The notes under the pieces are model-generated. The model had not been told where the DNA came from, searched no databases, and saw only the letters and a list, made by a program, of their open reading frames with translations. From Styela clava (Eukaryota > Chordata > Ascidiacea > Stolidobranchia > Styelidae), in assembly GCF_964204865.1 (NCBI RefSeq), contig NC_135250.1:5022001-5086000 (forward strand): a stretch of 64,000 nt of DNA, written 5' to 3'. The position numbers were made by a program, and so were the translations under genes. The number at the start of each line of letters is the position of its first letter. Position 1 is the first letter of the stretch. This document shows, in pieces, positions 19,456-63,262 of this stretch.

Positions 19456-20427
19456 AACTATTGTAGTATAATGAACTTTGGTGGAATCGGTTTGTTTGCC
19501 GATTTTTATTTAGGCCATGGAATAACTCTTCAATATGGGAACGGTTTATTCCGCCACGCTCTCCACCGATCTTTTCAAAATCGTGCTCTGCTTAGGCAGC
19601 ATTGCACTGTAGTGACTGACAATAATAATCACTGAAGCGACACTGAACCTATAGGAATGGATATATCGAATTAAGTATAATTCAAATCTCAACTCTTTTT
19701 TTATAAATACTTTCCGTCCTATATTGTCCTTTCAGAATCAATTCCAGATGAGTTGCAAGAAGTAGATGTAAATATATTTACAGATGAAGATTGTAGAAAA
19801 ATGCATCATACTCCGGGACTGGATGGTTCATTTACCAAAAGTCATTTTTGTGCGGGGTAAATGCAGACTAATGGCAACCTAATGATTTATTCAATGGACT
19901 TTCAGGACACAGGTTTTAAAGGACACGAGTTAGTCCCAGCTTTCAACTGAACCTGGGAGAAGTATAAAACGATTGGTCACTGATGCGATAAAACATAAAT
20001 TTAAAAATTAGAGGTTGGCACGGGGCGAGAAATAATATCTTAACAATGGGAAACACCAAGGCACATATATTTGTTCCATCTAACGAACTACATATAGATT
20101 TCATGAGCATGTACGAATCAAATAACGCTATAAGTCTTTTTTTAGCCGCTTAAAACCCCTAGAACTATTAAACTTACTGAATATTGTCATAGCCCAATTT
20201 ATTACAACCTCACAGTCACAGAGATTACGTACATGTGACCTGAATATTAATCTACAATAATAGCACCCTGACTAGAGTGACTAATTTAGTGAATTTTATT
20301 AAAATTCATCTATGTCGGAAAAATAATTGTTACAGTGACTAATACCGCTCTATAAACACAAACGCTCAACGGTTACACGAGATCCACCATCTTAAGCAGC
20401 AGGCAGTGTCGCCCGAAACTAACAAAA

Positions 20428-20450
20428 TGTTTGTGTGTGTGTGTGTGTGA
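20428..20450 (+). repeat. (GT)n microsatellite
   Basis: A short run of GT dinucleotides in intron 6 of the left protease copy. Confidence 0.8.
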
Positions 20451-21379
20451 TCAATAACATTAACCAAAGTTTCTTGCACCAGGTCGTGATTGGCTATTTA
20501 TCTGGTGGAAAATTATTTGAAAGAGATCCTTTGTTTCTATTATATAGGTCTACAAGTAGTTTTGACAAATTTTAGCTCATAAAATAAAATTCTAGCACAT
20601 AAGCTTAGTAAATCGTCGATTATTGAAACGTCTGCAGAAAAGAATTAAATGGGCAACAGTTCTTTTATATGACAAAAAGAGCATAGTTCGTCTTCAGGAC
20701 ATCTATATTTTTGTAAATGGCTATTTAATCGACAATGTTTTGTTTGTTTGTTTGTAAACGAAACAGCCTTATTTCGTACTTCCGATGTAAAATTGAATAT
20801 TGAAGTATGGGTAGTTCTGGGTGAAACATCTTAAAGTGGTTTGTATCTTCACTTTGTATATATTCGGTATTCCATTTGCGATGACAAATATTAGACAACA
20901 AAGATTTAACAAAATGGAATGTGACAATAGCAACATCAATCACATAAACGTTATAAAGCGGTACTCGACCGGCACTCGTTCAACCGATCGGATTGCCACT
21001 GTTACGCCTTTAGTCCAATATACATAAGGCTATAGGGTCAGCGTTTAAATATCACCCTTTCTAATATAAGTTTGTATTTTGTCTTACACAGCCACCTTGA
21101 AGGGAAGAAAGATACATGCGGTGGTGACAGCGGCGGACCACTCCTGTGCGAAGAAATAGCAAGTACATTGTACACGGAATAACAAGCAGTGGCCCAGCAG
21201 AGTGTGGAAAGAAAAATAAACCGGGTTTTTACACAAGGGTCAGCGATTTTATCACGTGGATCGAAAAAACGATATATGGTAAATATATCTATGTTTATCT
21301 TTTAATTATCTTTTGATAAGGCGTATGTAACCATTATCTGTTTTAGCTGACTTCTTCATTGATTCAAAGTCTATAAAAG

Positions 21380-21650
21380 CGTTTTTAGTATTTTTTAAAA
21401 CCGCTTCTCTCATTGACTACTGGACCAACTGCTTTCAAATTTTCAGTGGCTAAAGATTGCATTTCGCTAGAAGGCTGTTACTTTTATTTTTTTTTAAAAT
21501 TTTGTGGACTCTACGGAAGCCTTTTTTTTGCGATGACGTCATCAAAATAAAAAATTGCGCATCTTGTTGCGGTAGGCTACTGTGACAGATTCGTTAGATT
21601 CGTTTTGGCTTTCGTGTCCATAAATTCGAGCCTTATTTTCTTGTTTTGTT
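21380..21650 (+). repeat. R2 family copy in protease intron 7
   Basis: Contains GACTACTGGACCAACTGCTTT, TCGCTAGAAGGCTGTTACTTT, GCGATGACGTCATCAAAAT and TTGCGCATCTTG, ending at CGTGTCCATAAATTCGAGC. A related - strand copy at 39,650-39,800 occupies the matching intron in the right gene, so this insertion predates the duplication. Confidence 0.65.
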
Positions 21651-24600: not shown

Positions 24601-24710
24601 AAATGGGGGTCATGGTCGACCTGTCGTCTTCGTATGGGAGGTGTAACTATTTGCAACGGATTTAAATCGTCCACTCGGGACTGTTTGATGGGATCAAAGG
24701 TAAATATAGC

Positions 24711-24936
24711 GTACTACCGTAGTGTGTGTACCAGGATAGGGTTAGGCCATAATTTTATTCTGATTTTCCTTATTTTAGATCTATTACGAGTTCGGAGACT
24801 GTCTGTGTTAGCCAAGTGAATATAAGCCCATAGGTTTTAGTACCCTTAAACTACTTAATGTAAAGTACCGGACTACCGGTAGGTGGACAAAATTAGTTAC
24901 CTCTATATTGGTATGCATACAAACTTCTGGAGCGCC
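24711..24936 (+). mobile_element. MITE 'TACTCCC' family, short-TIR variant, copy 9 (protease intron 13)
   Basis: From GTACTACCGTAGTGTGTGTA to CAAACTTCTGGAGCGCC, immediately after the exon ending at 24,699. The matching intron of the right gene (35,189-35,682) lacks it. Confidence 0.75.
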
Positions 24937-25578
24937 ACAAATATAGTTATGAAACCTGTATTAAAATGGGATTGGGTTGGTGTGGCTCTAAAATCAAATA
25001 TTTCATTTATCTGGGATACTTATATCCATCTATTATGCAGGAGGCTGGGTATCTCAAATGTTGTTTTCTCTTATTACACACACGCGTGTGCCATTGTAGC
25101 ACTTTTGCACCATTTCTGCACACTAGTCCCACTCCTGTTGTTGTTCTGGGGTAGATATATTACTTTAAGCAAATGGTTAAAGTAAGCATATATGTGAACT
25201 ATTAACATACTATGTTCTGGATTAGAAAAGATATAAAACTTTAGTCAAATAGTTTAGTCGAGCATATAAAGTGACATTTATGCTATGTTCTGGGTTGAGA
25301 TACATAAAATACTTTGATCAGAGCAAGCATATGAAGTGAGATACATGCATTCGGGACACTGTATTTTTAGGATTGTCCGAGAGACATAACTCTAAATACG
25401 ACTTCTTTCCAATTTGATGACATTAATGCTATCATTTAACGAGACAACTCGAATTACTTAAAATCTGGTATTTGTATTTAAATAGGACGTCAACCCTCGA
25501 AGATGCAGTGGTGAATATCCCGGTGAAGATTTTTATCGCGAGTCATCGTGTATGATGGAAACCAGCAATTGTCCTTGA

Positions 25579-27839
25579 AAATATTACTGTTCTAGAATAT
25601 GTTTGTTTCACGGCCATACTTACTGATATTACACGGATATTACTCTGATATATATTGTACTTAGCAAATCTAACCCTCTGTGAGTAAAAAGTGTTTGAAC
25701 TTTGCGTGGTGACTTTACCGAGTTGTTCCACTGTCGACATAGTGACATTAGAGTTTTCTACTTTTGGCTGTTTGTGTTGATATATATTATGGCTTAAATT
25801 AAAGCATTGGAGTATATTCATCTGCTTCCAGATGTTTTGATGCTAGAATAAACGGTCCGCCAATATGACTTCCAAACCATTTTAATTCTGTGTACATCTG
25901 ACAAACAAGCAAATGCCCATAGAAAACACTGTTTTTTAATATAATTGCTGTTCTACTTTTTGGTAATAGATAAATGAACTCATCAATTACTAAAAATAGC
26001 AAGACGGAACACAGTCCAAGCAACGTGTATATAGGTGTAGCTTAAAAAGTAGATACTTCCCATTTGCTTACGATTCTCAACTCTAACTCGCAGCTGAAAA
26101 TAAATTGATTTCAACTCTGATATATTTAACATTTCAACATGAAATTTTAGTCGCTCAAGAGATTTATGTTTGTTAGTTTTTGTTAAAAAAAAAATCGACA
26201 AAATTTCGATTCCGGCTTCAGAATGGAAATTTGGATGGAAGAGAGTAATGCTCAAATATATAGACACAAAGACCAAAACGAAGTTATATTAAATCTTCTA
26301 CAGTACCGATAGTCTTCCTTACCAAAAAACTCTGCTGAAATGCGACCGGGGAATCGCCACACTCTGCACAATTTTTATTTCGATAACGTCATAACACAAA
26401 ACTTCAAAGTGAAAAACGAATGCCATAGAGCCGACTGCTTCTAGAAACAATACCAATCTTAAACTGCTGACAATTTCAAAGCAATTGGTACAGTAGTTAA
26501 GAAAGATAAAAGAGATTTTTCACAAGGACAAGAAAAAGGGTACTCCCTAAGTATGTGAACCAAGATGACGGACACCGGAACGTAGTATATGTACCAAGTT
26601 AGGGTTAGGCCATAATTTCAGGTACGAATACTACGGGAGTCACTTGACTAGTCCCCGAACTCGTAATAGAACTGAAATAACAAAAATTGGGAATAAATTT
26701 TTGACCTAACCCTTACCTGGTACACATACTACGTTCCGGTGTCCGCCATCTTGTTTTTATATACTTCGGGAGTACCAGAAAAAAAATACTATACCAACAT
26801 CAATCTAACAAAACGATCCACACGTCCATTTCGTGTCCAAAAACACTCCGCTCCGAATTCAATATCGAAGAACAATTCCGCATTCCCCTAACTTTAATCG
26901 CGTAACTTTATCGCCAAGTTAGTACCTACACCAAAGTCATAAGATATTAACAAGAATGTTTATTCGATATATCAGCGAGATGTTTTGAGTAAGAAAAGGC
27001 AAGAAAAATCATGAAACGTAGCTCACGAGTCTTCGTAAAATTGTTTCATAAAATAAAGGTTTTATTACGGTAAAGAATTTTTATTTAATTCAAATTACAA
27101 TACTTTGTTTTTAAGGTTAAATCAGAACTTTTACTGTTCCGTTAAGGGCGTGCTACGGTGATATATTTCAAATCATTCATAAGTAAGGGCACATATAACG
27201 ACTGCAAAGTGAAACTTGAATCTGATAGGGTTTATTCAAAGCTAAACCATTTACACTTCAAGCCTTCAACTCCTGTTAGTAGCCCACCGGCCACCGGCAA
27301 CCACCGGCGTCACGATCCATTATGAGCAACGCAGTAACGGCAATGAGTAATACTTTGTCGTCGCCTTGCACTCTTGCTGCTGTTTCCATGGTAACTTGAA
27401 CATCGGTGCTAGGAGTCGTTATTTGTTTCTGTGTATCGGACGCTTCCTGGAAAATCAAGTCGCCCCGATTGTAATTTCTTCCTATATTCTTTTGCTGGTT
27501 TTTCTACTTTTTTAATGCTATTATCAATTACTGTTAGGTTTTTTTCACGGGTGTCGCTGCTCGATAACCGGTCCTGGTTTCTCGCGACTCCTTTTCACCT
27601 CGGCTTACCAGTTTCGCCTCTTTTTACATACTGTATTGATTAGTGTATGGTATTTCATGTATGGTGGATAAAATAAACTACTGATTACCCATCACTCTGC
27701 AAACAAAAAAATGGAAGAGTGGCGTGTGTTACAGTCTATAAATGTTCTCAACGTAATGGCCAGTGTTTCTCTCTTTATAAATGACGGGTCATGAATGTGA
27801 AAAAGTCTATGTCATATATTTGACTTGACCAATAAAAAC
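25579..27839. other. Intergenic: inner part of left arm, then unique spacer
   Basis: Up to about 26,890 this is duplicated arm sequence containing an inverted R2 copy (about 26,235-26,870) split by MITE copy 10. From 26,890 to 27,840 I see no gene. The stretch 27,270-27,480 is richer in GC and has a 60-codon - strand frame, but I recognise nothing in it. Confidence 0.5.
26539..26776. mobile_element. MITE 'TACTCCC' family, copy 10, nested in R2
   Basis: From GGTACTCCCTAAGTATGTG to TACTTCGGGAGTACC. It interrupts an R2 copy. The homologous R2 copy in the right arm (34,262-34,690) runs through without it, which gives an empty site. Confidence 0.8.
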
Positions 27840-28373: not shown

Positions 28374-29299
28374 ATGAAAAAGGTTAGTGGTAAAACAACT
28401 CCAGATAAACTGCGATACACGCAAGATTCAATAAGTTCCAATTTCAAAAATGGCGGAAGTATCGAAGAAGCCATCAATAATGTTGTTGCCGGGGTATTAT
28501 CAGTTCTTGATTTTCCTCGAATGGAAGTTTACAGTTTTGCTGGTAGCTTGTGGTGTCGAAACAACAGGAGACTGTACGTTATGAAAGTAAGTAAATTTGT
28601 AAGTTGTGCTTTATTGTGTGTGATGTTATCGTTTATGAATTGTTATACTGTATTATATGGAAGTTTCCCCAATCCTTGACCTCTGAAAGATCCTCCCTGT
28701 ACTTCATCATTGCAAACTTTTCAACGTTGATTTTGAGAGTGTTTTGGAGAGTTGGCGCTTACAAACTGGCTCCCATGTCTAAACCTATCATTTTTTTTTT
28801 CAAAACAATGAACAACGTGCCGCTTATAGCTACTGATAGCTAATTTTAGGGTATTCTATCGCAGCGTTTGCAGTATCAATTTTTGGTTATTGTAACTACG
28901 GTAAACTAAAGGTCTTCAGAAGACCTTCAATTCTGTAAATCTGGCAACTGGTTTCAAAAATGCTGTGAGTCTGTAACCAAGCTAAATCATCACTAAATAT
29001 TTTTATATAAGTCCTTGATATTACTTACTTACAATATAATTGTTTTTATTTTCGTTGCATAGGAGCTGCAAAGGCGGGGGCATTTAGACAAAATCGTTTT
29101 TGACTACGTGTGGGAAAGGCCACATAATAGAAGATATTTTACGACAAAAACAGACGGAAAAAGTATACGAGTTCGCAAAGGACGGTCAGGAATTAATAAT
29201 GTTGGGAGAGGAGGGTTCAGAACTATTAATGCAGACATATTGCTCTCCTCATTTGCATTCTCACTTACAGATGACGAAGCTGATGACGATATATTTTAG
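28374..29299 (+). CDS. F1: two-exon gene family member, unrecognised function (149 aa)
   Basis: Exon 1 is 28374-28586 (71 codons, ends ATGAAA|GTAAGT). Exon 2 is 29063-29299 (AG|GAGCTGCAA..., stop TAG). The phase-0 junction joins YVMK to ELQRRGHL. Conserved landmarks are [18 protein letters not shown] at residues 11-28, [12 protein letters not shown] at 60-71, then [18 protein letters not shown] in exon 2. The C-terminus is acidic (DDEADDDIF). There is no signal peptide or membrane segment, so I expect a cytosolic or nuclear protein. From memory, the RYTQ-SI/F-NG/(D)NRRL pattern recalls uncharacterised ParB/sulfiredoxin-like proteins of eukaryotes. That is not established here. The start is supported by an identical TTTTCAATAATGA context in F5. 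The intron (476 bp) and the upstream 300 bp are shared with the other copies. Confidence 0.75.
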
Positions 29300-30548: not shown

Positions 30549-31310
30549 ATGAGACTTAGAATAAGTCCTGATAACCTGCGATACACTCAAAACTCAATAA
30601 GCTCAAACTTCAGAAATGGCGGGAGCATCGAGAAAGCCATTAATGACGTTGCCAGAGGAGTATCGTCAGTTAAATCTTTTCCTAGAATGAAGGTTTACAG
30701 TTTGGCTGGTAGACTTTGGTGTCGAAACAACAGGAGACTGTACGTTATGAAAGTAGGTGAATTTGTAAGCTGTGCTGTATTGTGTGTGTTAATAAGGCTT
30801 ACTTACCGTGGCTAGGGTATGAGTTTCGTATTTATTCCGAAGGAGAGGAAAGCTCAATTGTATGGCGAACCACGGCCAAAGGTATGGGATTAGTTAACCA
30901 GTTATTATTTATTTCAGATGCATGGACTTGATAGTGGACGAAACCGTGACCGATCCGCTTTACGATGGCGAGGAGTCCGTCCTATTCTCTCGCACTTAAT
31001 TTTTCTCACGAGCGTAGACTAAACTAAATGGCTTCCTCCCCGTCCCCCAAATTATGTACTTTGACAATTTATTTTTGTTCTAAAGGAACTGCAACTGCGG
31101 GGGCATTTAGGAGAAATCGTTGTTGACTACATCGGGGAAAAGCTACATCATAGAAGATATTTTACGACAAAAACAGACGGAAATAGTATACGAGTTCGCG
31201 GACAGTCTGGAATTGCTGATTTGAACTCCTCATTTGCAGATTTAACCATTACTGCGAACCAATATAATTACCAATATGATGAAAGACCAATACGAAGACT
31301 AATACGATGA
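30549..31310 (+). CDS. F2: family member with a degenerate repeat tail (predicted 142 aa)
   Basis: Exon 1 is 30549-30752 (68 codons, ends ATGAAA|GTAGGT). Exon 2 is 31086-31310 (AG|GAACTGCAACTG, stop TGA). The protein core matches F1 and F3 ([49 protein letters not shown]). After a TANQYNYQYDE stretch the reading frame leaves the D-D-Q-Y repeat frame that F3 uses and ends within 30 bp. Removing one A near 31,282 would only meet a TAA a few codons later, so the tail is broken twice. The minisatellite itself continues to about 32,678 and is split by two hAT elements. The 333-bp intron holds a SINE-body fragment (about 30,820-31,010). It may be an active short form or a decaying copy. Confidence 0.65.
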
Positions 31311-32678
31311 CCAATATGACGACCAATACGATGACCAATATGAATACCAATACGATGACCAATATGAAGGCCAATATGATGACCAGTATGAAGACCAGTA
31401 TGAAGACCAAATCGATAACCTATATCAGGGGTGTGCAAACTGCGGCCCGCGGGCCAAATGCGGCCCGCCAATAAAAATTGTGCGGGCCGCGAAGAAGTGC
31501 CGATTTTAAGGATGTGACTTGAAGTGCTTATTACACGTCTAGGATGTTTTTGATTAAAAATATTTTATAATTTTTATCCTATATTTCAATTTTGTCGAGA
31601 TAGTTCGTGCAGCCTCGGCAATAAGGGCAAAATATAATGGCATATATAATCATTTCTTGCAATTTGGAATCAGAATTTGGTAATCAGGTTCACTCATTTA
31701 ATAACGACGATGATCGCGTAATTACATTTACGTTTTACTGAATCAACGAATGGTGTCGTAAGCAATATATATATATAAATAAAAGCCCGTGGTACAAGCC
31801 CTACCACACGCCAATCAAATATCTACCATCCCATTTGGCCCGTTCGTTTCCTGCGAGTACGTGCAAAAGGTCTCACTCAGTTTCAGTTGAGCAGACAATG
31901 ATACGTAACGATGGCGTAACAGTTAAAACTAAATAAAAAATTAAAATAAAACTGCGAAAAGAGTAAATTCTAATTTTGAATTCCATTTGCGTGTGCTCAT
32001 TTTCGTACATTACGTTCTTTCTCAACTATTAACGCCTCCGCTCACCTCCCTCGATCGCCGTCCTCACACTTTCCGCGGTCTTTGCTTATCCAAGCCAAAT
32101 ATTATCTCCGTGTTTTGTGGACTTAGAACGGTTTAATGCCTTTTCAGATAAAGAGCGTCCGTACTTACGGAATGGGGATTGGAACAAATTAATTTCGTTC
32201 CAATTACGGAAACCTCTTATTTAAGGTGCACATGGTAAGAAGAAAGAACAGGGAGTTAACGAATTAAAACTACAAATTTTTCGTATTCAGAGACTTTCGT
32301 AGGTAGAATTTCTAGGTGCGGCCCGCGGCTTCACCAAGTTACTTGTATTTGGCCCGCCTGTAAAAAATGTTGCACACCCCTGACCTATATGATGACCAAT
32401 ATCCTTGCCAATATTGTGACCAATATTATGAAAATTATGGCCAATATGATTACCAATATCCCTGCCAATATCATGACCAATATGATGAAGATTATGACCA
32501 ATATCCCTGACAATATCGTGACTAATATGATGAAGATTATGACCAATATGATTACCAATATCCCTTTCAATATCGTGCCCAATATGATGAAGAATATGGC
32601 CATTATGATTATCAAAATCATGATCAATATCATGACGAATATAACCGAGAAGAATATGACGAATATTATGACGTATAT
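31255..32678 (+). repeat. Degenerate 12-bp minisatellite of F2, split by a hAT element
   Basis: The unit is GA(T/C)GACCAATA(T/C), coding D-D-Q-Y in one frame. It runs from about 31,255 to 31,425 and again from 32,383 to 32,678 with heavy decay (AATATNNNNACC patterns). Short open frames on both strands (32,287-32,754) are by-products of the 12-bp period. Confidence 0.75.
31426..32382. mobile_element. 957-bp non-autonomous hAT element inside the F2 repeat tail
   Basis: Ends CAGGGGTGTGCAAAC(T)GCGG and, inverted, ATGTTGCACACCCCTG. The flanking octamers are identical, ACCTATAT at 31,418-31,425 and at 32,383-32,390: a perfect 8-bp target-site duplication. Subterminal sequence repeats GCGGCCCGC and GGGCCAAATG. 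No transposase frame is visible. Confidence 0.9.
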
Positions 32679-33461
32679 CAAGGCTGCCCAACCCGCGGCC
32701 CGCCGAACTGTTTTTTGCGGCCCGTCCTATAAAGTTTGTGAGAAAAATATTTAAATTTTCACTATGTTATATATAAATATTTAGGTTTAAGTATGTTTGG
32801 TGATTTTGGTGTGATTATTCCTGCCATCTATCCACATTCAATTGCCGGTTCTTATTATTACGTATGTGTCAAGTCTTGCACCCTGGTGGACATCGACGTC
32901 GTTTTTTTTTTTATTTCTGGAATTTATTTTTGGATATCGTGCGATCATTGGGGACAAACGAAACGAAACGACCCACTTAAACTTGATATTCCCGCGACTT
33001 AAACCTTGAGATAATATCATAGCTACTCAAAGTAAACGGATGAAAACACTACTACCCAAATATAACACTCAATTTTGACGCGATGTATTTGTTCTCGTGT
33101 GGTCGTCAAAAAAACGCAATTGTGTTGTGGTATACAACTTGTGTAATGATTGATTGTTTGATTCGGGGGCCCGCGAGTGTCATGTCCACGCCCCGCGTTA
33201 CCAGATATTCGAATAGTAAACTGCTATTCTAATATTCGACTTCATATTCGAATAATTTGCCAACCCTAACCAGTAACCAGGAAGCAATTATCAACTTGAT
33301 TGATTTCATGTTAATGAACTTGCCTTTTATGTATTATGTAAATTACCTACACCGAAATTTGGAATTAGCTGGTATTAATGTTCAGTATAAACGTTTGCGG
33401 CCCGCAACGAATTTCGTCATGTGAAAGTGTCCCGCGAGACCAAAATAGTTGGGCAGGCCTG
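32679..33461. mobile_element. Second hAT element (783 bp) in the F2 repeat tail
   Basis: Ends CAAGGCTGCCCAACCCGCGG and, inverted, ATAGTTGGGCAGGCCTG. The flanking octamers ACGTATAT (32,671-32,678) and GCGTATAT (33,462-33,469) match at 7 of 8 positions. It shares GCGGCCCG subterminal motifs with the first element but has different ends, so it is a related but separate family. Confidence 0.85.
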
Positions 33462-33469
33462 GCGTATAT

Positions 33470-35095
33470 GATAACGATTTGTTGGACTGGTCATCTGAAA
33501 TCTCCTATGGAGTCAGACCATTCACTTGACCGTATTTCATTTCCCAATGTAAATAAAACAAAACTTGACTATGACGAGGTTTAAATTATTTTTTTCAAAT
33601 TTGTCATTAAGATGAACCGATCGCCTAGGTGCAAACATCAACGATGACAAATTGCCTATATTTGTTTGCCTTTGTTATATTATTTCAGATTACCTGCAGT
33701 CGAGAAAATTATTTCTATATTAATATATTTATAAACGTATTAGAAGCATTTATATGCCAGCCACAGTTACGTCAAAGTGCATAAATAATTATTACAACAA
33801 TATACGCTGATTTTATGTCTTTACACTATGCTATTGAATTCGAGTTCTATTTATTTGTAGATTGTATCGGTTTTCTTGTAGTAAATTTGGTTATGACGTA
33901 ACATTGACATACTTACCTATCTGTAATTATTTTATTAATATTTCAAGGTATGAGTAGGTTTTGTGTTATAAAATAGTAGAATATTGAGTATGCTTATAGT
34001 TTATTCTACTTCTCCGAGTCTTTCCGATATAAAAAAAACAACTAGGGTCTCAGACAAATAACATTCACTATCAACAGAAAGTGGTTAAACACATCGCAAT
34101 TTACAATAGCTATTATGTTATTACTCCCTCAAGTTGCAACTCTATGATGAGATTGTTAAACTTCTGATTAACAGAAATTGTAATAGGCAGTTGATAATGA
34201 TAACAAATAACCAAAATGGGAATGCGGAATCGTTCTTCACTATTGGATTCAGAGCGGAGTGTTTTTAGACACGAAATAGTCACAGGGATAGTCTTGTTAA
34301 CTTGTTCTTATTTTTTTGTTATTTTATTCTTTTTCTAGTCATTGTAAAAAATCGCGTTTCTCTTTCTTCGACTACTGGGACAATTGCTTTGAAATTGTCA
34401 GTGGTTGAAGATTGTTCTTGTCTCTGGAACGCTATTACTAATATTTATTTCAAAAATGCTGTAGGTTGTATAGCATTCGTTTTTCACTTTGAAGTTTTGT
34501 GTCATGGCGTCATCGAAATAAAAATTGCGCAGCGTGTGGCGATTCCGCGATCGCATTTCAGCGATCTAGACTTTCTAGAGGTCAGCAAAGTCGGAAGCTC
34601 ATTGATAAGGAAGACTATCGGTACTGGAAAAAATTTGATATACCTTCGTTTTGGTCTTCGTGTCTATATATATATTTGAGCATTGCTCTCCTTTTTTCCG
34701 AATTTCCGGTCTGGAGCCGGAATCGAAATTTTGAACTTTTTTGAACGGTCAAGTGTGAAGCCAGTGTCGATTTTTTGTAACGAAAACTACAAAACATAAA
34801 TCTATTGAGTGAATAAATTTTCATGTCGAAATGTTGAATATCTCGGAGTTGAAATCAATTTATTTCCAGTTACGAGTTAGAGTTAGGAATCGGAAGCAAA
34901 TGGGAAGCATCTTTCTTAGCTACACTTGTATACGATATACCGTCGTATACCGTTTGCTTGAGCTGTGTTCCGTCTTGCTATTTTTAGTAATTGATAAGTC
35001 CTTCAAACTATTTGTTAAAAAAGTAAATTTCAACGACTGCTCACGTGAAAAACAAACAAATAGTAAAACAGCAATTATACTATAAAACAGTGTTT
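33470..35095. other. F2 3' flank and start of right inverted arm
   Basis: From 33,470 to about 34,050 this is F2-unit 3' flank. It matches the inverted F3 flank at 52,080-52,450 (for example GACTATGACGAGGTTTAA). From about 34,215 the right duplication arm begins, with an uninterrupted R2 copy at 34,262-34,690. No gene is seen. Confidence 0.6.
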
Positions 35096-38000
35096 TTAGG
35101 GGCAATAGCTTGTTTTCATTCTACACGATGACTCGCAATAATGATCTTCACCATAATATTCATCTCTGCATCTTCTAGTGTTGACGTCCTATATAAATGC
35201 AAATACCAGATTTTAAGTAATACAAGTTGTCTCGTTATATAATGACATCAAATTGGAAGGAACTCGTATTTAGAGTTGCACGTATAGGCCAGGTTGTCAC
35301 GCCAGTTGCATGTATCTCCTCACTTCATATGCTTACTCTAATCAAAGTATTTTATGTAACCTAACCCAGAACATAGCTTGAATGTCATTTCATACACTTA
35401 ACTAACTATTCACCTAAAAATTTATATCTATTCTAATCCAGAACATAGTATGTGTAAATAATAGTTCATATATATGCTTGCTACATCAACCATTTTCTGA
35501 AAGATTATAATATCTACCCTATCTCAGAAAAACAGAAGTGGGACAAGAGTGAAGAAATGGGACAAATGTGCTACACTGGGACACGCGTGTAATAAGAGGA
35601 CACAACATGTGGGACACCGTGTCTCCGGCATAAAGATGGAACTCGATCCCAGTTTACTACAGGTATCATAACTATCTTTCACCTCTGATCCTATTAAACA
35701 GTCTCGAGTGGAGGATTTAAATCCGTTGCAAATATTTCCATGTCCTACACGAGAACGACAAGTCGACCACGACCCCCATTGACCCCAGTGGTAAGATGTT
35801 GAGGATTCTTCTGAAATATGTGTACGGGGTTAAACGAGTTCATTTTCGATGAGGAAATATCTAATGATCTTTCTTATATTCTGATAAAATATTTTTAATT
35901 TATTGAAACACCAGTGTATAAGCGTCCTCACACAGCTACAGTTGCATGACTAAGTGAGATAATGAATTGACCCACGACTCAAATACACTTCTTGAGCATC
36001 TGATCTTGTAAAACATGACACCAACTTAGTACTTACAAGAAGTTTTTCCAAAACTACTACTCTCATCCATTTCAAATTTACTCAAAAGTAGAAAAAGTAT
36101 CGCGAAAGCTCATCGCCGAGTCTTACATGGACCGATATCCCGAAACTCGGTCTTCAGCGAAGGTCTCGTTGGTACTTGCGCGCGAGATAAGTGGCCATAT
36201 ATAGGATCAGTACTAATCGATACTGCTCTTAGGCGGGTACACGTGTCCCACTTGTACCAGTGGGACACGTTGGACAAGTGGGACACGACATTTTGGAGAC
36301 ACCGGATAATATGCACGCAATATTTTGGACAAACTCTGTTACTCGTTATAAATTACTCATGAATCCACCACAAACGCAAATCTACTACAGTTGTCGCGAA
36401 CAAATACCTTAAAATAACTACTATTCTGTATAGATGCTTTTAGCAAATTCAGTTACAACATCTACCGAGTAATTTTGCTGCCAACTATGATTATTGAAAA
36501 TTATTTCACCTGGACATGATTTTAGATTGCAAGTGCGAAGTTTAACATCTTTCCCAGGATTACATTTATTTGAATCCAGAACTTCGAAGTTGTCAGAATC
36601 AAAGCATTTTCTTTTCATTTTGATTTCTCCAGTTCCACATGAGGCGCTACATTCAGAAGCGTTGAACCATTCTCCCCAATGGTATTCTGGAAAATATTTT
36701 TATTTGCGGTAACACGGAGAAAAAATTTTTCAGGAGGCATAAATTTAGTATCTTTTTATTCCCTCGTGCGTTTTTATCAGTGTTAGGGAGGCTCGAGTAA
36801 TTAACTCAACTCGAGTAACCAATAACAAAGACTCGAAGTTACTCAAGTCATCTATTGAGTGGGATTCGTGATCAACAACCGCCAGTGAGACTCAACTTGG
36901 TGTTTGAATTGACCCCGGACTCTACTTGGCTCACTCAGAACTTAAGTTTAGGGACTTTCACTAAACACTGGTTTTTATAAAAAAAAATACCCGATTAATA
37001 TGAAATTGTATAATATGGTACGATATTACGCGACAAGCCTGTTTGACCAAATGGCGAAGTTATACCTTTATAGGTGGCACGAAATGCGCCAACGAGGTAA
37101 TAGATTTATATGTTGGTTTGCGATCCGATTTGATGCCCAGGGCTCAAAAATAAATCTGTTCAATATACCAATGCAGTATGGTTTGACACATTTTCCAATT
37201 AGTTTGTCTTCTCCAGGGCAGTTGTCCGGTTTCGATTGATCGCCTTTATCGTCCACACAGTTCCGAGTGCTCGATTCAGTTCCTTCACCACATGTTACGC
37301 TGCAAGTTGAGACCCAGGGTGTCCAATGATATTCTGTTAATATTATATATGTGATATCAGAAGATAAGAAACTTAAATCGGATGCATCACAAATAGAATA
37401 TTAGCAAGAAACAACAGTAAGATTTATATTTATCATTTTATCATAGCATGTATGTTGTTGTGAGATTCGATACACAGCCAAAACAACAGCTCGGTGAAAC
37501 CAAGTATATTAAAGTGAGCACAATTTCTGCGATAAAAATTGTTTATAAGAGTATATATCAGTTAGATTTTTCATTGCTTGATGAACTGAAAATATAAACT
37601 GAGGGTACGAAAAAAATTTACACATTGAAATGGGAATATAAGACAACTACGGTTTTATTTTCCTTGTATTAATTTTGTATAGTGATGAAAACTACCACAA
37701 CTTTTTTAATTTGCATGATTGCCGGGTTGCCTGATTTGTGATTGTCGCTATATGTTAATGGTAATCTCAGGGCATTCAATTTTTAGTTTGAAACTGTTAA
37801 TAAAAGTTACCAATACAGTCGGGCTTGACACATTTTCTAATTTTCCTGGATTCACCAACACAGTTCTCCGCTTTCGATTGACTGTTTTTGTCGTCCATAC
37901 AGTCTCGAGAGCTTGTTTCAGTTCCTTCACCGCATGCTACGTTGCATGTTGAGACCCAAGTAGTCCAATGATATTCTATTATCAACGGAACATCAACATC

Positions 38001-41000
38001 GAATGTACAGTATACAGAGAAAATGGAAATAATTTTATACAATGCTTATTTTCAACCAAAAAAAAATTGAAAATCAATGGGGTTAGGATGTGGTACAAAA
38101 GTATCAAACTAGACGAAACAATCATTTTCTGGATTCAAAATATTGAATTTAGAAATAAAATTAACATAATTACCAATGCACTTCGGCATTACGCATGGTT
38201 TTATCTTCTTTTCTCGGCCTGGGCAGTTATTCGGAAACGTCGGTGCATTGTTTGCATCGGCACAATATCGAGCGATAGTTGCGATTCCTTTATTGCATGT
38301 TACACTACAAGTTGTTTTCCAATGTGTCCAATGATACTCTGTTATCAACGAAAATTTACATCGAATGTACAGTATACAGAGAAAATGGGATTATTTCTAT
38401 ACATTCCTTTTTTTCCACCAAAAAAATTGAAAACCAACGGGGTTAGGATGTGGTAAAACTGTATCGAACTCGACGAGTCAATCATTTTCTGTTTTCAAAA
38501 TATTGAATTTAGAACTAAAATTTACATAATTACCAATGCACTTCGGCTTTATGCATGGTTTAATCTTCTTTTCTAGGCCCGGGCAGTTATTTGGAAACGT
38601 CGGAGCATTGTTTGCATCAGCACAATATCGAGTGCTAGTTGCGATTCCTTCATTGCATGTTACACTACAAGTTGTTATCCAAGGTGTCCAATGATACTCT
38701 GTTATCAATGAAAATTTACATCGAATGTACAGTATACAGAGAAAATGGAAATATATCTATACATTTCTTTTTTTCCACCAAAAAAATTGAAAACCAACGG
38801 GGTTAGGATGTGGTAAAACTGTATCGAACTCGACGAGTCAATCATTTCTGTATTCAAACTATTGAATTTAGAAATAAAATTTACATAATTACCAATGCAC
38901 TTTGGCATTACGCATGGTTTAATCTTCTTTTCTCGGCCAGGGCAGTTATTCGGAAACGTCGGTGCATTGTTTGCATCAGCACAATATCGAGTGCTAGTTG
39001 CAATTCCTTCATTGCATGTGACACTACAAGTTGTTTTCCAAGGTGTCCAATGATACTCTGTTATCAACGAGAATTTACATCGAATGTACAGTATACAGAA
39101 AAATGGAAATGTTTTATATAATGCTTATTTCCCACCAGAAAAATTTAAAACCGCTGGGTTAAAATGTGGTACTCTACTCCAAGGGGTACCAATGGTATTC
39201 TGTAAGCAATAAGTAAAATATCGTCACTAAACGATAATGATGTCACACATTGGCAAAAGCAAAACAGTCAAATTCCCCTGGCATTAATCTGTGTGTACAG
39301 CGTGTAATGGGAAGTCTCTTCAGACAGAGTGCCTTCTGATCATATAGTAGTCGTATCATATATTGACAAAAAATGTCTATTCGGATACGTGCCATTGAAT
39401 AATTTGGACTTGAATCAAATTAAATCTTTTTCAAATCAAGTAATTCATATATGCGGTAACAAACCGACGCAAGGCGGGATTCGGCAGCGAAAATGTCGTA
39501 TGGAAATTCCTTCACATTCCGTTGCAGGTCTGTCATCTTTGTCTAGACAAGTTCTTGTCACTGTTCTTTGTCCTCTACCACATGTCACACTGCATTTATT
39601 TCTTTTCCAGTTGGACCAATGATAGCGAAATCCTGAATAAACAAATACAAAACAAACAAAACTCGATAGAGATGCTCAAATATATGGACACAAAAGCTAA
39701 AACGAAGTAGTACGGGTATGTAATCTGTCGCAGTAGACTACCGCCGCAAGGTGCGCAATTTTTAATTTTGATGACGTCATCGCACAGATGATGGTTACAT
39801 CCGCTTTATAAAAAATACTTCAAAGATAAACATAAATATATTCACCATATATAGTTCTTCCGATCCACGTGATAAAATCGCTGACTCTTGTGTAAATACC
39901 CGGTTTATTTTTCTTTCCACACTCAGCTGGTCCACTGCTTGTTATTCCATGTACAATGTATTCCCCGTTTTCCTCGCACATGAGTGGTCCGCCGCTGTCA
40001 CCACCGCATGTATCTTTCTTCCCTTCAAGATGGCTGTGTGAGACGAAGTACAAACTATTTATGTGAATATTTTTTAAACAAAAAAGATATGCTCAAATAT
40101 ATGGAAACGTAGCGCCACATAATTTTGATGACGCCAAATAAAAGTGATAGCCTTCTGGAGAAAAATTCCATTTTCAACCACTGAAAATTTCAAAGCAATT
40201 GGTCCAGTAATCAAAGAGAAAAGCGATTTCTTCAAAACGTGTCAAAAAACAACAAGTACAACATAACAACAAAACGATTGTTATGTCCACTACGTGTCCA
40301 ATTATATTATTCAATTTTGTTAATTTCTGGCAACACTGCATGTTAATTTCACCGTTTTGTTTCATACTTCACTGATTTTGTGTTTGGCTTGTCCTTGCAT
40401 TGAAAACTTGTAGCGGGTGGGTAGGTCGCTGCCCAAGGCATAATCTGACATAATCATGTTCACGAAGAAGTATTAGTCAAATTACCAATTATTTTATTTC
40501 TCTAGAGAAATTGTGATAGAATATATAGGTTAATCGACGCTGCCGTTCAAATTTAGTTTCAGGTCTCACGGAAATTACCTTTTTAACGTTTTAAAAATTG
40601 GGCTAAGGCAGGGGTGGCCCAACCGGTCAGAGATCAAGAGCCGCATTCCGTACTTTATTACTGCGAAGAGCAAGTTGATACTCTTTCCAATTTCAGTTGA
40701 AAGTTGGGTAGCTATTTTTCAGATAACCAGAGTACTGTCTCAACCCGCGTTGTATGAAGACTAGGAAGTTTTCTAAATGAATCAATATTAATTAGGCAGT
40801 GCGTAAACTAGTTGCTAGTAGTCAGTATTAACCCCGCACAAAAATGACTTTTAGTGTATGAACCATCCGGTCCAGGAGTATGATGCATTTTTCTACAAGC
40901 TTCATCTGAAAATATGTTCACGTCTACTTCTTGCAACACATCTGGAATTGATTCTGAAAGGGCACAAACGTTTATACTCAGTAACATTTAATGTTGTATC

Positions 41001-44000
41001 TTAATATTGAATAATAACGTATTATTGATATAGTAAGGGGATAAATTTTAGAAAAAGATTCGAGCTTGAGACATGGAGTATAGTATGTTAAATTTGATAT
41101 CTCCAATTCTGTATGTGCTATGGCGTTTCATCGTAAATCATTGTCGTCAATTATAAGAGACATATAGTTGAATATATGGACATGAAGGGCATGCATTAGC
41201 ACCGATACGACGAAGCCTTTACCGCGAGTTTATTAAAAAGTCCGCGGGGAATTATGCCTGAGGTCAGGGGGGAGAGGGGTGCGGGTCGTTGTGCGCCATC
41301 TTGGTACACATTATTCGGGAGCACCTAATTTTCAGAACCCCCTGCTGCTGCAGGCGTGCAACTCCCTCGTCTATTTTCCCTTCCCTCGAATGACCTTAGT
41401 CTGATATGATACTGTGTCCCAATTCAATGCGCTTAGTACTCGTGTTTCTAAACTTCTAATAACAGGAAGAAATCCAGAACTCAAGAAATAACAGTCATAC
41501 ACAGTACGATTCCGGGAAATTAATAAAACTATAACGATATGTATTGTCTTCCAATTAAAGTGATAATCATACATTTGAAACTGCGGTAACTGGTATTGAA
41601 TTTAGTGCTTCTTTGCCAGATTTACTACAGGAATACAGTAAAAGAAACTTTTTAAATAGAAACATCACAATTAGATTTTCATCCAAACTACATACGACTA
41701 AACTCAATACCAGTACATGTACTAACCTTATATTTCTTTCAAAGTCACAAATTAGGCACTAAAATAATCTTAATAAAGTCAATCCTGGAAGAGACACAGA
41801 GACAACACTAACGTACCAAACTTGTGCTGAAAACAGGAAGTGCAATCTATTCTGGGACTTTCTACACAAAACCATTTGAACTATGACGTCATATAATTAG
41901 GCCTGTCAATCAACACCCTTGCAAGCCGTCAGATCCTGTGCCTTATAAGGATATCTGGCGTGCAGTAGTAAAATATTTTCTTATAAACAATTATTACAAT
42001 TATTAATAAAATGGCCACAGACGTCAAATAAAGTAAATTTTCCTAAGCATTGCTCGGAACCATGAGGCCGATGCGTATACTGAAATATCGGTGATTTAAT
42101 CGTTTTATGTAAACGCTGCAGGACAACGATGCCGTGAGTGTTAAACTGCTTATCGGTATGGCGATACCCTTAGTGAAAACCGCATACACTGTTGGTTTAT
42201 GAAATAGAGTGAACAAAAGAATGGTTTTGCACTCTGTGTGGTTCGCGGGATACGTTTAGCCAGTAAGGTATCTCTGGTGTAAATTTTTTTTTATAAAACT
42301 TGAATAGACTATAATTACCTTTACTTCCATTCTTTACTGTTGCCCCCCAGCCCGTAACGACACATGACTTTCCTGCCAACATTGTTTTAGAGCCTATAGG
42401 GGGAAATATGGGTTCGATATGACTATGCAATCCTGTATTTATCGGTGTTGGGAGTTTGATTAGTGATATGTCGTTCAGATATTTTATCTTGTCGAAATCT
42501 GGAACAAAAAATGCTTTTTGAAATAACGATGCTAAGATGGCGTATGAAAGCAATGGTATTCGTATTGGCAAAATTCACCAGCATAATATATAATTGTTGA
42601 AAGCGTCATATACTTTTATGCTGCATGTGGTATCAAAATATGGATTTTCTGTGAAGCGCTCAAATTACGATTTCCATAAACAAAGATGTATTGTAAACGC
42701 GGGTCATGAGTTATTTTAAAAGCCTAACCAAATGTTAATTTCAAAATTGAAAATAATTTTTGAAAACAAAAGAGCAATGCTCAAATTCATGGACACGAAA
42801 ATCAAATGAAGTAGTATTAAATCTATAACAGTACCGAGATCTTATTAAAAGACATCAGACTTTGCTGAGCACCATAACGGCACGGTGCATAGTTTGATGA
42901 CGTCATCACACAAAACTTCATATGTTAAAACCAATCCCATATACTCAGGGCTGCCATCGTTATGAATCCAAAAATGAGGACGTCAGGGAAACATAATATT
43001 AGAATACCAAAGAACGAAATGTAATAAACAAAATGTATTCATGCCAGTGCGACCCGTGTCTAATCATACTTTGCACTAGAAAGGTTTTACTCCAGCAGTT
43101 CTTTATTTTTGGAAACAGTCTGTTCCGTCGCACTTTTAACACGAACTGATTTTAGCCGATAGGATATTGTTTTGTGTCAATTATATTGCTGTTATTACGT
43201 AATGAATGCGCGTAGCAATCAATGCGGTTGTAAAATGTCATTTCTAGCAAATCAAACATTCGAATTGACCAATCTGAGTGCCTGGTATTAGAACCTCTCC
43301 CCATAAAATAAGAACACATGTCAAAATAAGGACGTTTCTTAGAAATAAGAACCTAAAAATTTTCTAAGACTATGGCAGCCCTGCATAAAGCCCACAGAAA
43401 TATACGGTAAAAAAAATAATAGCTTTCTAGCGACAACAACAATCTTTAACCACTAAAAATTCAAAAGCAATTTGTCCAGTAGTGAGAAAAGCCTGTTTTT
43501 CAACAACATAGTAACAAATTGATCCATAGACCAACTTCGTAATTCTTTCAAATTCAAATATAAAATAAATATTACCTTCGTGCACGTGAACAATGGATGC
43601 CTTTGTATAATTAACAGCTCCTTTACCAATCCCGTTTCTGTTTATTGTTCCCAACGTAATTCTTTGAATCTTCCAATTGTTTCTAGTAAAAGTAATGTTA
43701 ATTAATTACACCACAAAATTAATTGAGCATTTATTTTCGCAGTCCAACAGTAAAATACACAAACTCGGGGAATCCTTGGTAGTTAGTGGCAAATGGACTT
43801 CGTCGCATTTCAGTTGCTGATCAATTGATGCAAAATACCACCCGCACAAGTTTATACTCTTGTGAAGTTTATGAGCTAGCTCATTGGTTCCTAACCTCTT
43901 TTTTAATAAATTCTTTCCTTTGTCTATTCCGGACGTTTTTATTCGTCACTCATTATGCGTTACTTACGTCTATGATATAGAATTTTAAATCCCACCACAG

Positions 44001-52070: not shown

Positions 52071-52519
52071 CCTCAAAAGTTCAATCTATAATTTACAGAT
52101 AGGTAATTATGTCAATGTTACGTCATAAATAAATATACTCTACAATAAAAGCAATACACTCTACAAAAAAGATGAACTTAATAGCATTGTTAAAAAATAT
52201 ACAATATATAAAAGCAGCATATACTTTATAATGTTGTAATACATATTCACCGTGGCTGGCATATAAACGCTGCTAATGAATATAGAAATTGTTTTCTCGT
52301 TTGCCGGTAATCCAAAAGTAATGTAACAAAGGCAAACAAATATAGGCTATTTGTCATCATATTTGTTTGCACTTTGAGGATTGATTGACCTCACTGACAG
52401 ATTTATGAAAAATGTTAAATAAACCTCGTCATAGTCAAGCTTATTTTTTCAATTCAATAAAATATGTTCAATGGAATTGACTCAGTAAAAATTTCAGGCC
52501 CCAGTCGACGATATCGTCA

Positions 52520-53690
52520 TCATCTACGTCATAATATTGGTCAGGATTTTGGTAATTATATCGGTCATAATCTTTGTCATCATATTTTCCACGATATTGG
52601 CAAGTGTATTGGTGATCGTATTGGTCATTGTATGGGTCACAATATTGGTTATTTTATTGGTCATCGTAGGGGTCATATTATTGGTCATTGTATGGATCAT
52701 CATATGGGTCATCATATTGGTCATCGTATGGGTCATTATATTGGTCATCATATGGGTCATCATATTGATTATTATGTTGGTCATCGTATGGGTCATCATA
52801 TTGGTTATTATGTTGGTCCTCGTTTGGGTCATCATATTGGGTATTATGCTGGTCATCGTATGGGTCATCATATTGATTATTATGTTGGTCATCGTATGGG
52901 TCATCATATTGGTTATTATGTTGGTCATCGTTTGGGTCATCATATTGGTTATTATGCTGGTCATCGTATGGGTCATCGTATTGATTATTATGTTGGTCAT
53001 CGTATGGGTCATCATATTGGTTATTATGTTGGTCATCGTTTGGGTCATCATATTGGTTATTATGCTGGTCATCGTATGGGTCATCATATTGATTATTATG
53101 TTGGTCATCGTATGGGTCATCATATTGGTTATTATGTTGGTCCTCGTTTGGGTCATCATATTGGTTATTATGCTGGTCATCGTATGGGTCATCATATTGG
53201 TTATTATGTTGGTCATCGTATGGGTCATCATATTGGTCATCGTATGGGTCATCATATTGATTATTGTGTTGGTCATCGTATGGGTCACCATATTGGTTAT
53301 TATGTTGGTCATCGTATGGGTCATCATATTGGTCATCGTATGGGTCATCATATTGGTCATTGTATGGGTCATCATATGGGTCATCATATTGGTCATTGTA
53401 TGCATCATCATATTGGTCCTTGTATGGGTCATCATATTGGTCATTGTATGGGTCATCATATTGGTCATTGCATGTATCATCATATGGGTCATCGTATGGG
53501 TCATCATATGGGTCATCGTATGGGTCATCATATTGGTCATTGTATGGATCATCATATGGGTCATCATATTGGTCATTGTATGGATCATCATATGGGTCAT
53601 CGTATGGATCATCATATTGGTCATTGTATGGGTCATCATATGGCTCATCATATTGGTCATTGTATGGGTCATCATATTGGTCAGCAGTAA
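52520..53690. repeat. Hierarchical minisatellite encoding the F3 tail
   Basis: The base unit is 12 bp (+ strand TCATATTGGTCA/TCGTATGGG type). It is organised in 36-bp units (+ strand motif GGTCATCATATTGGTTATTA) and, between about 52,790 and 53,250, in a 108-bp higher-order unit in which every third 36-mer differs (TTTGGGTCATC). Because 12 is a multiple of 3 and the unit lacks stops, several frames on both strands stay open for over 380 codons. Only the - strand frame continuous with the F3 exon is supported as coding. The tract runs past the F3 stop (52,678) to about 52,520. Confidence 0.85.
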
Positions 53691-54946
53691 GAGTTAAATT
53701 TGCAAATGATGAGTCCAATAGGTCTGAATTAGCGATTCTTGGCCGTTTTCGAACTCTGATACTTTTTCCGGCTGTTTTTGTCGTAAAATATCTTCTATAA
53801 TGTAGCTTTTCCCCCACGTATTTAACAACGATTTCTTTTAAATGCCCCCGCAGTTGCAGCTCCTTTGAACGAAAATAAGTTTTCAAAGTTCATAATGTGG
53901 GGATGAAGAGCTATTTACATCAGACTACGCTCAAGAGAATAATTAGTATTTCCCGGCTAATAAGTCTACCAGGCAAATAAGACGATGTCTATTTTTAGCA
54001 CTAAAAAAGAGGGTTTTTCCATATAGCCCTCCAATAAAACGGGACAGGGAAATTGCTTCTGTTGGCCAGTTAAACACTAATATGCGCTAATAATTTTCTA
54101 TGGTTAGACCAGATCATGTTTGTTTGGTAGAATCATACTCACAGAATCATTTATTCTTAACAACGAGGTAACAATTTTAAGTTAAAAAGTGGCAATCACT
54201 TTGAACAACCTATTAATCCGAACGTTGAAATAACTTTTGAATAGGGTGTGATATGTACTACACTGCACGTCCATGGGTTTGTTAACAGCTGTGTGTTTCC
54301 CGTCTGTGTCGTTTTGCGTCAAATCGGCAAAACAAAAGGGTCATGAATCGCTTTACATCGGTGGCAGTGTTTTCTCTTTAAAGTACCGATAACGGGCTGG
54401 CTAAATATCGAGTGCTTCATTTATAATTACAAGGGAATTTTCAAACAGAATATAACAAATAACAGCTACCAGTACAAGTCAATTAAATATCATGATTGGC
54501 AAACCCTTTGGCGACATCGAGTATATAATAAAATATATCAAACCAAATATATATAAGGTTAACATAAATCATGTTTGAAAATAAAATAAGCGGATCACAA
54601 AAAAATACGATAAGTTTACCTGCCCAATAAGACGCCCCCCCTCTCCCTCGGGGTAAATACGAAACTCCTATCCTAACCATGGTAAGTAAGCCTTATTCCT
54701 TATTACCATACACAACACAGAACAACTTATAAATTTACCTACTTTCATAACGTACAGTCTCCTGTTGCTTCGGCACCAAAATTGTCCAGCAAAATGGTAA
54801 ACCTTCATTCGAGGAAAAGATTCAACTGACAATACTCCTTTGGCAACGTTATTAATGGCTTTCTCGATGCTCCCGCCATTTTTGAAGTTTGAGCTTATTG
54901 AATCTTGAGTGTATCGCAAGTTATCAGGACTTATGCTAAGGCTCAT
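52678..54946 (-). CDS. F3: family member with long repeat-encoded acidic tail (predicted 462 aa)
   Basis: Exon 1 is 54946-54743 (68 codons, ATGAAA|GTAGGT). Exon 2 is 53862-52678 (AG|GAGCTGCAACTGCGG, stop TAA). The core matches its paralogues: [32 protein letters not shown] (Ser where others have Asn), [17 protein letters not shown]. After [12 protein letters not shown] the protein becomes about 325 residues of D, Q, N, Y, P and H in units such as [12 protein letters not shown]. There is almost no hydrophobic residue besides Tyr, so the tail should be disordered and strongly acidic. The intron is 880 bp. F1, F4 and F5 stop shortly after the core. F2 has a decayed version, so a repeat tail existed in the F2/F3 ancestor. 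The repeat count is likely polymorphic. Confidence 0.75.
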
Positions 54947-57013: not shown

Positions 57014-57654
57014 TCAGTCTAAAATAAAATCGTCATCTGTAAGTGTCAAGTATACAAATGAGGAGAATAATGTGTCTGCATTAATAGTTCTGAACCGTCC
57101 TCTCCGAACTCGTATACTTTTCCCGATTGTTTTTGTCGTAAAATATCTTCTATTATGTGGCCTTTCCCCCACGTAGTCAACAACGATTTCTTCTAAATGT
57201 CCCCGCATTTGCAGCTCCTATGACACGAAAATAGGAATAAATAGATTTTAAGAGTATTATTATTAAGGACCTATATAAGGAATATTCGGTGATTATTTTC
57301 AGTCTTACAGCATTTGTGGAGCCAGTTGCCATATTAACAGAATTGCTTGTTTGGTCGTTTTCGAATTCACTGTTACTAGATAAATACGAAAATGTTCTCA
57401 TGTCCGTATTTCAACTGCTCTGCAACAGCACAACTTACAAACTCACTCACTTTCATAACGTACAGTCTCCTATTGTTTCGGCACCAAAATTTTCCACCCA
57501 AACTGTAAACCTCCATTACAGGAAAAGATTCAACTGACAATACTCTTTTGGCAACGTCATTAATGGCTTTCTCTAGGCTTTTGCCATTTTTGAAGTTGGA
57601 ACTTATCGAATCTTGAGTATATCGCAAGCTATCAGGACTTATGCTAACTCTCAT
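57014..57654 (-). CDS. F4: two-exon family member (predicted 135 aa)
   Basis: Exon 1 is 57654-57451 (68 codons, ATGAAA|GTGAGT). Exon 2 is 57217-57014 (AG|GAGCTGCAAATGCGG, stop TAG). The core is [51 protein letters not shown]. It is shorter than F1 and F5 in the RSGI...RFRT linker (about 11 residues missing) and ends TLTDDDFILD. The intron is 233 bp. The 3' flank has the empty site for the hAT found beside F3 and F5. Same caveats on function as F1. Confidence 0.7.
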
Positions 57655-62271: not shown

Positions 62272-63262
62272 TTACCAGTCTAAAATAATATCGTTATCAG
62301 CTTCGTCATTTGTAAGAGTCAAGAATGCAAATGAAGAGAGTAATGTGTCTGCATTAAGAGTTCTGAACCTTCCGCTTCGTACATTAACAATTCCTGACCG
62401 TCCTCTGCGAACTCGTATACTTTCGCCGGCTGTTTTTGTCGTAAAATATCTTCCATTATGCGGCTTTTCTCCCACGTAGTCAACTACAATTTCGTCTAAA
62501 TGCCCCCGCTTTTGCAGCTCCTATGACACGAAAATAAAACAAATAGATTTTAAGAGTAACATCAAGGACTTATATGAAAATATTTAGTGATGATTTAGCC
62601 TGGTTACAGGCTCACAGTATTTTTGAATCCACTTGCCAGATTTACAGAATTGCTTGTTTCGTTGTTTATTGAATCCACTGGTACTAAAATACAAAAGTGT
62701 CTCACTGCCCGGACTGCTTTGTAATATAATGCAGGGTGGTCGCTAGAAAAGCAGAAAATTTGAAGTCAGATGAGATCACGAATAATATACGTGCTGATTT
62801 CTTTTTCGATACGTTTCTCTTCTCTCCAGGATCTAGGTTGCTTTAGTTTGATACCCTTTATGTTCTATTCAATTTAATAATATTCTGACACCCGCATCAT
62901 GGAAGAAAGCAAGAAACAGCTTTGTAAATGTTATTTTTTGTAAAAATAAATAGCTTTTTGACATATTTTCTATTTTTCTAGCGACCACCCTGTCTAATAA
63001 TACATGAACGATAACATCACACACAATAAGCACAACTTAGAAATTCACTTACTTTCATAACGTACAGTCTCCTATTGTTTCGACACCAAAATTTATCATC
63101 AAATCGATAAACTTCCATTCGAGGAAAAACATCAACTGATAATACCCCGACAGCAACGTCATTAATGGCTTCGTCGATACTTCCGCCATTTTTGAAGTTT
63201 GAACTTATTGAAACTTGCGTGTATCGCAGTTTATCTGGAGTGGTAGCCTTAACCCTTTTCAT
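62272..63262 (-). CDS. F5: two-exon family member (predicted 152 aa)
   Basis: Exon 1 is 63262-63053 (70 codons, ATGAAA|GTAAGT). Exon 2 is 62520-62272 (AG|GAGCTGCAAAAGCGG, stop TAA). The core is [51 protein letters not shown]. The acidic C-terminus resembles F1 (NDEADNDIILDW). The N-terminus (MKRVKATTPDKLRYTQ) pairs it with F1 rather than with F2-F4 (M-L/V-SISPD-LRYTQ). The intron carries a CAGGGTGGTCGC element (62,732-62,992). Function unknown, as for F1. Confidence 0.75.
62732..62992. mobile_element. CAGGGTGGTCGC hAT-like element in the F5 intron
   Basis: Ends CAGGGTGGTCGCTAGAAAAG and TTTTTCTAGCGACCACCCTG are near-perfect inverted repeats. It belongs to the same family as 11,468-11,719 and 48,119-49,327. 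The F1 intron lacks it at the matching place (after GATGTTATCGTTTATGAATT). Confidence 0.8.

Follow-up and report, generated by a model that had tools for sequence, protein, structure and literature searches.

A 12-bp minisatellite in the open frame of a Tox-ParBL1-like gene family of the ascidian Styela clava

We analyzed a 64,000-nucleotide stretch of the Styela clava genome (NCBI RefSeq assembly GCF_964204865.1, contig NC_135250.1, positions 5,022,001 to 5,086,000 of the forward strand), hereafter called the window, whose own numbering is used unless another contig is named. A two-exon gene is present in it in five copies. F1 (28374-29299) and F2 (30549-33529) lie on the plus strand, while F3, F4 (57014-57654) and F5 (62272-63262) lie on the minus strand. 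F1, F4 and F5 are tail-less, with predicted products of 149, 135 and 152 aa, respectively. All five paralogues share AAA-GTRRGT donors and AG-GA(A/G)CTGCAA acceptors (the hyphen marking the splice junction), introns of 233-880 bp and unbroken core frames. Exon 1 of F3, used as a tblastn query, found a match in all five, with 76-81% identity to the other four, and the core part of its exon 2 matches the other four as well. F4 may be a gene-conversion mosaic, its exon 1 being nearest to that of F3 (0.119 differences per site) and its exon 2 nearest to that of F1 (0.088).

Exon 1 of F3 (54743-54946, minus strand), delimited by tblastn, comprises 68 codons for the N-terminal half of the core, ends in ..NRRLYVMK and is followed by the donor AAA-GTAGGT. 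An intron of 880 bp, with an acceptor ending ..TTCAAAG, separates it from exon 2, which starts at 53862. The core part of exon 2 (53683-53862, 60 codons, ELQLRGH...SIRVRKR...LTLTA) was placed by tblastn and by its acceptor. Exon 1, the splice sites and the exon 2 core are free of stops and frameshifts, and the core frame enters a repeat array at 53682 without interruption.

The array is a minisatellite (52681-53682, minus strand) built on the unit GAC CAA TAT GAT, coding for DQYD, and its variants. A preliminary description of this DNA had the core frame running straight into a 12-bp minisatellite and staying open for more than a thousand bases, which is the case over 1,002 bp; the long in-frame tail that it put at about 325 residues spans 334 codons. 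The periods of 12, 36 and 108 bp noted there, the latter two being of higher order, were recovered with identities of 0.72, 0.87 and 0.87 at the respective lags, rising to 0.97 for the 108-bp lag over the central 504 bp, and as a repeat the array stands well above chance (TRF score 1115). The open part keeps a strict 12-bp register with 83 whole units of 21 types. The register itself extends over 96 units within the exon, in a frame unbroken from the core, the unit being a multiple of three. Described earlier as acidic, rich in Tyr, Asn and Gln and of low complexity, the predicted tail indeed consists of 36.5% D, 18.9% Y, 13.5% Q and 12.9% N, with a net charge of -124. If translated, the F3 product would be 462 residues long, a basic domain followed by a probably unstructured acidic tail.

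The open frame ends, as had been reported, at a TAA inside the array. This first in-frame TAA (52680-52678 on the minus strand) falls on the TAT codon position of the unit; an origin from a 3-bp insertion was considered and rejected, as the 12-bp register shows a T-to-A change at that position. A second in-frame TAA (52654-52656, minus strand) follows 24 bp beyond the first. Downstream of both, the frame carries on through degenerate repeats on the distal side into the ancestral C-terminus (52468-52653, minus strand), where DDDDIVDW occupies 52524-52501 and is followed by GLKFLLSQFH and, at 52470-52468, a TGA. But for the two TAA codons, the frame and the 12-bp register are kept over 385 codons. 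The TAA of F3 precedes, and removes, the old DxDI(V/L)DW end.

An hhalign comparison of the five window paralogues (alignment A1) with an alignment of nine bacterial and viral-contig rows (A4) covered 95 columns over the whole length, with a probability of 98.8 and an E-value of 7.3e-17. With tblastn, the F3 core matched a Sinorhizobium chiapasense plasmid among plasmid sequences (E 3e-7). The residues NRR (N61-R63 of F3) are invariant in 8/8 rows of a further alignment (A2) and are also present in F6-F8, three paralogues outside the window, and an N-terminal Ser/Thr is conserved, RF[ST]Q of the bacterial and viral-contig rows aligning with RYTQ of the window paralogues. The Tox-ParBL1 motif is given in Table 2 of PMC3482391 as [NT][RT][RT], mostly NRR, and the whole-length homology, the N-terminal Ser/Thr and the NRR motif are all likenesses to Tox-ParBL1 as presented there. 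Judged by its sequence, the core of the F3 family is a Tox-ParBL1-type (ParB/sulfiredoxin-like) domain. In sulfiredoxins the active-site Cys lies in a GGCHR-type motif. That motif is absent here, the window paralogues reading WCR(N/S)NRRL at this place, and the exons identified show neither the helix-turn-helix nor the dimer domain of ParB (cf. the account in PMC12704722).

Metazoa are among the carriers of Tox-ParBL1 named by Zhang et al. 2012 (PMC3482391), where the domain in polymorphic toxins is described as C-terminal, behind RHS, FilH or HINT parts. No RHS-, FilH- or HINT-like part was found ahead of the domain in the window exons; the proteins start 9-12 residues upstream of LRYTQ and are made up of the domain and a C-terminal part. 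Since the Tox-ParBL1 entries of PMC3482391 list eukaryotic carriers apart from toxins, the missing RHS/HINT part counts against a toxin architecture and not against ParBL1 homology. The Styela genes differ from the Tox-ParBL1 toxins described there in having two exons, in showing no RHS/HINT part in the exons located and in the acidic tail that a repeat encodes in some copies.

Other searches returned little. Pfam and NCBIfam held no family for the core, PDB searched by sequence gave no match for the F3 core and only three weak, unusable ones for the Sinorhizobium domain (E 0.53-1.2), two wider-family proteins had sub-threshold Pfam matches or none, and no phage sequence was matched by the F3 core with tblastn. 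A second plasmid record, from Haladaptatus (E 0.7; two records in all), was disregarded. The profile of the window paralogues (A1) yielded 110 pattern stretches in genome contigs and 17 in viral contigs, none of which was confirmed, while with the bacterial alignment (A3) 9/205 and 1/58 were confirmed in the same two sets; of these 10 loci, A4 left out one partial match (L012).

F2 carries a broken version of the tail, in agreement with its earlier description as the decayed copy. A 1-bp insertion in GATGAAAGACC at 31278 puts its tail out of frame after 9 codons, and the frame that follows meets stops at 31300, 32508 and 32523. The F2 tail also contains two inserted elements of 957 and 783 bp, flanked by 8-bp target duplications (one with a mismatch), which, judging by their ends, we take to be hAT-like. 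With F1, F4 and F5 tail-less, an intact tail is thus confined to one of the five window paralogues, as had been proposed. Once the extra base and both insertion lengths are subtracted, the terminal DNDLLDW of F2 (33470-33490), the counterpart of DDDDIVDW in F3, comes into frame with the core; by this arithmetic, the ancestral tail is suggested to have been one continuous frame. The second repeat piece of F2 has TRF periods of 21, 45, 57 and 102 bp, multiples of 3 and not of 12. The frame arithmetic and periods of F2, together with the 385-codon register of F3, hint that the tail may once have been translated with some constraint on frame.

A search of the genome (376.6 Mb, 379 contigs) with the F3 core gave at least 41 matches, of which 10 lie in the window and 21 others were inspected, ten being left out (seven on contig C3, two on C4 and one on C8). 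Exon 1 of the two-exon type occurs 8 times among them, seven times on C1 at 5.050-5.095 Mb and once on C10. There are at least eight two-exon paralogues, and four of them bear a tail with a 12-bp period in the same position; the unit is DQYD in F2 and F3 and DEYDDEDT in F7 and F8. In F7 (C1, exon 2 from 5094414) and F8 (C10, exon 2 from 22330902) the acidic array directly follows LTIT. F7 has 92 codons of acidic repeat in frame and a TGA about ten codons later, still within the array; F8 loses its frame after about 13 array codons, and its exon 1 contains a TGA. The acidic end of F6 is short. In genome searches with tail peptides, that of F3 matched F3 only and missed F2 (7/7 candidates scored), and the F7-type peptide matched F7 and F8 only (150/217 candidates scored). 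On the core tree the label 'tail' needs 2 changes, with a single origin in 22% of 200 bootstrap trees, so the tree leaves room for one origin or two.

ParBL1-like relatives of a wider family, with about 30-39% identity to F3 and differing C-terminal tails, form clusters on C3 (20.26-20.78 Mb), C14 (13.98-14.00 Mb) and C13 (6.106-6.108 Mb) of the same assembly (G000). One of them (L024, C3:20776469-20776783 and downstream) looks intronless, with a 449-codon frame and, by eye, several tandem C-terminal copies of about 70 residues. Some other C3 relatives have hydrophobic ends resembling membrane anchors.

The tail-less copies indicate where the arrays sit. In tail-less paralogues the acidic C-terminal stretch is short (DDEADDDIILDW, directly before the stop). 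F5 ends in LTLTNDEADNDIILDW (also given as LTNDEADNDIILDW) before its stop; this end contains DNDIILDW, the counterpart of the array-distal C-terminus. F1 terminates with LTDDEADDDIF and F4 with LTLTDDDFILD. The arrays of F2 and F3 lie between LT(I/L)TA and DNDLLDW or DDDIVDW, with a short extension following the Trp. Flanked in this way by LT(I/L)TA and DxDI/LVDW, they point to an acidic C-terminal stretch that expanded internally instead of an appended new domain. The acidic codons just ahead of the stop (..LTxDDEADDDIILDW) form a short 12/24-bp near-repeat. Doubled, the F3 unit matches the 24-bp unit of F7 at 19/24 positions; for the acidic codons of F1 and F5 the agreement with that F7 unit is 17/24, the best of 507 in-frame 24-mers from the window cores reaching 15/24. 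Once the amino acids are kept constant, this F1 and F5 match is of marginal significance (P = 0.12 for F1 and 0.034 for F5); it is suggestive, and no stronger, of a tail expansion that may have started from such an acidic seed.

Over 53682-52681, four of the six frames are free of stops: the coding frame, one other on the minus strand and two on the plus strand. Over 53682-52528, the coding frame contains two stops and the three others none. Frame length, or the absence of stops, was therefore rejected as proof of coding, three other frames being equally open over the same DNA. In the repeat segments reported for Nematostella, 37.5% of alternative frames lack a stop, compared with 4.3% in a random simulation (Naamati et al. 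2009, PMC2805694). F3 resembles the tandem-repeat proteins described there in being an animal gene with coding tandem repeats in DNA that is open in several frames; what sets it apart from those proteins, as that source presents them, is that the stages of a single gene family can be traced here, from short acidic ends through a long array to arrays in decay. For annotation, this calls for caution: a stop-free unit whose length is a multiple of three can yield a kilobase that is open in several frames, and ORF length is then no evidence of protein use.

To look at constraint on the tail, we counted private changes, that is, variants in single units, classified by hand (kappa 2). The F3 count left out two unit types with an ambiguous nearest neighbour and the types present in at least two copies; for F7, a two-copy GTA GGT unit contributed two changes, and a GGC change involving two bases contributed one. 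F3 has 2 synonymous and 7 non-synonymous private changes (2/9), where 0.198 synonymous is expected under neutrality, with an ML omega of 0.86; adding the ambiguous types gives 2/10 synonymous (omega 0.99) or 3/11 (omega 0.66). In the in-frame part of F7, 2/8 are synonymous, against an expectation of 0.208. Pooled, 4/17 are synonymous and the ML omega is 0.83, a value that comprises 17 hand-classified events. The probability of so few synonymous changes is 0.0001 at an omega of 0.1, 0.0068 at 0.2, 0.051 at 0.3 and 0.27 at 0.5. Strong purifying selection on the tail sequence (omega of 0.2 or less) is thus disfavoured, and moderate or composition-only constraint stays compatible with the 17 events. 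The preliminary description had called the minisatellite recruited and had likened its product to a metal-binding or phase-separating domain. Recruitment as a functional domain does not follow from the open frame, which is expected for such a repeat, and it finds no support in the three equally open frames, the private changes without a signal of constraint, the two stops of F3 before its ancestral C-terminus or the broken or stopped frames of F2, F7 and F8.

We consider it probable that the locus holds a coding minisatellite on an animal ParBL1-type gene, grown from an acidic C-terminal stretch, with a tail that is tolerated and not selected for its sequence. The acidic stretch would have expanded in some paralogues by gain and loss of units, through slippage or unequal exchange, giving rise to a coding minisatellite in which homogenisation spreads stop-free units. 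F3 would be open for 334 codons because a change in the copy number of a 12-bp unit never breaks the frame and because stop-free units spread. A TAA would then have ended its tail early, cutting off the old C-terminus. Expression, disorder and neutrality of the F3 tail are predictions made from the DNA.

We regard it as unlikely that the tail is a selected functional domain, that is, a long, disordered acidic polymer rich in Tyr, Asn and Gln on a basic ParBL1 core, serving for example charge masking of the ligand site or condensation, with composition alone under constraint. Acidic tails are known to mask by charge in HMGB-type proteins. The 128-residue core of F3 has a net charge of +14, and the part up to SIRVR one of +13 in F2 and F3 compared with +10, +9 and +6 in the tail-less F1, F4 and F5, so that a basic core would be joined to a tail of -124. 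It would also agree with such a function that four of the at least eight paralogues bear acidic tails in the same position, built from two different units, that the tail-less copies have acidic ends too, and that the frame is kept over 385 codons in F3 and, one base aside, through F2. However, no amino-acid constraint was detected in F3 or F7, F2 and F8 lose their frames after a few units, and the stops have cost F3 its old C-terminus. Were the tail selected, this would be an unusual fate for a ParBL1 domain in an animal.

Equally doubtful in our view is an array that is effectively non-coding, either because the F3 mRNA ends, is spliced or is degraded before it, or because F3 is a young pseudogene, the open frame being a by-product of the 12-bp repeat. 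Among the cores of the five window paralogues, pairwise dN/dS ranges from 0.30 to 0.65, and a one-sided Fisher test gives P < 0.05 in 7/10 pairs; the pairs without significant constraint are F2-F3 (dN/dS 0.65, P = 0.18), F3-F4 (P = 0.08) and F1-F5 (P = 0.07). The constraint in seven pairs, the intact exon 1, splice sites and exon 2 core of F3, and an ancestral C-terminal motif lying beyond the array in the same frame all argue against a non-coding array, although the F2-F3 value, the openness expected of any such repeat, the two premature stops ahead of the ancestral end of F3 and the sister arrays of F2, F7 and F8, all broken or stopped, would fit it. Least credible is a ParB-like family, related to domains of bacterial toxin systems, that in an animal repeatedly turns the same C-terminal acidic codons into long, fast-renewed acidic polymers selected for composition, a charge lid or condensate-forming arm on a putative nucleotide-binding basic core, even with two different units among the four tailed members of a set of at least eight paralogues. 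Within one genome, the family displays several states of a coding minisatellite: F1, F4 and F5 have a short acidic end, the array of F3 is long and open, that of F7 is open in part, and those of F2 and F8 are broken.

No RNA families or tRNAs were found in the 64-kb window. Its first half contains several copies of a partly self-complementary repeat, each about 200-250 bp long (6858-7050, 12662-12900, 13828-14080, 14756-14992, 15997-16224 and 26536-26787). F1 and F2 lie between the arms of a large inverted duplication (17205-26887 and 34218-43901) whose pieces are about 71-89% identical and which carries TSP1 and trypsin exons. A tandem 360-bp repeat at 37956-39171 (3.4 copies, 90% matches) overlaps a TSP1-domain frame at 38708-39124, so that a TSP1-coding segment appears to have been duplicated in tandem.
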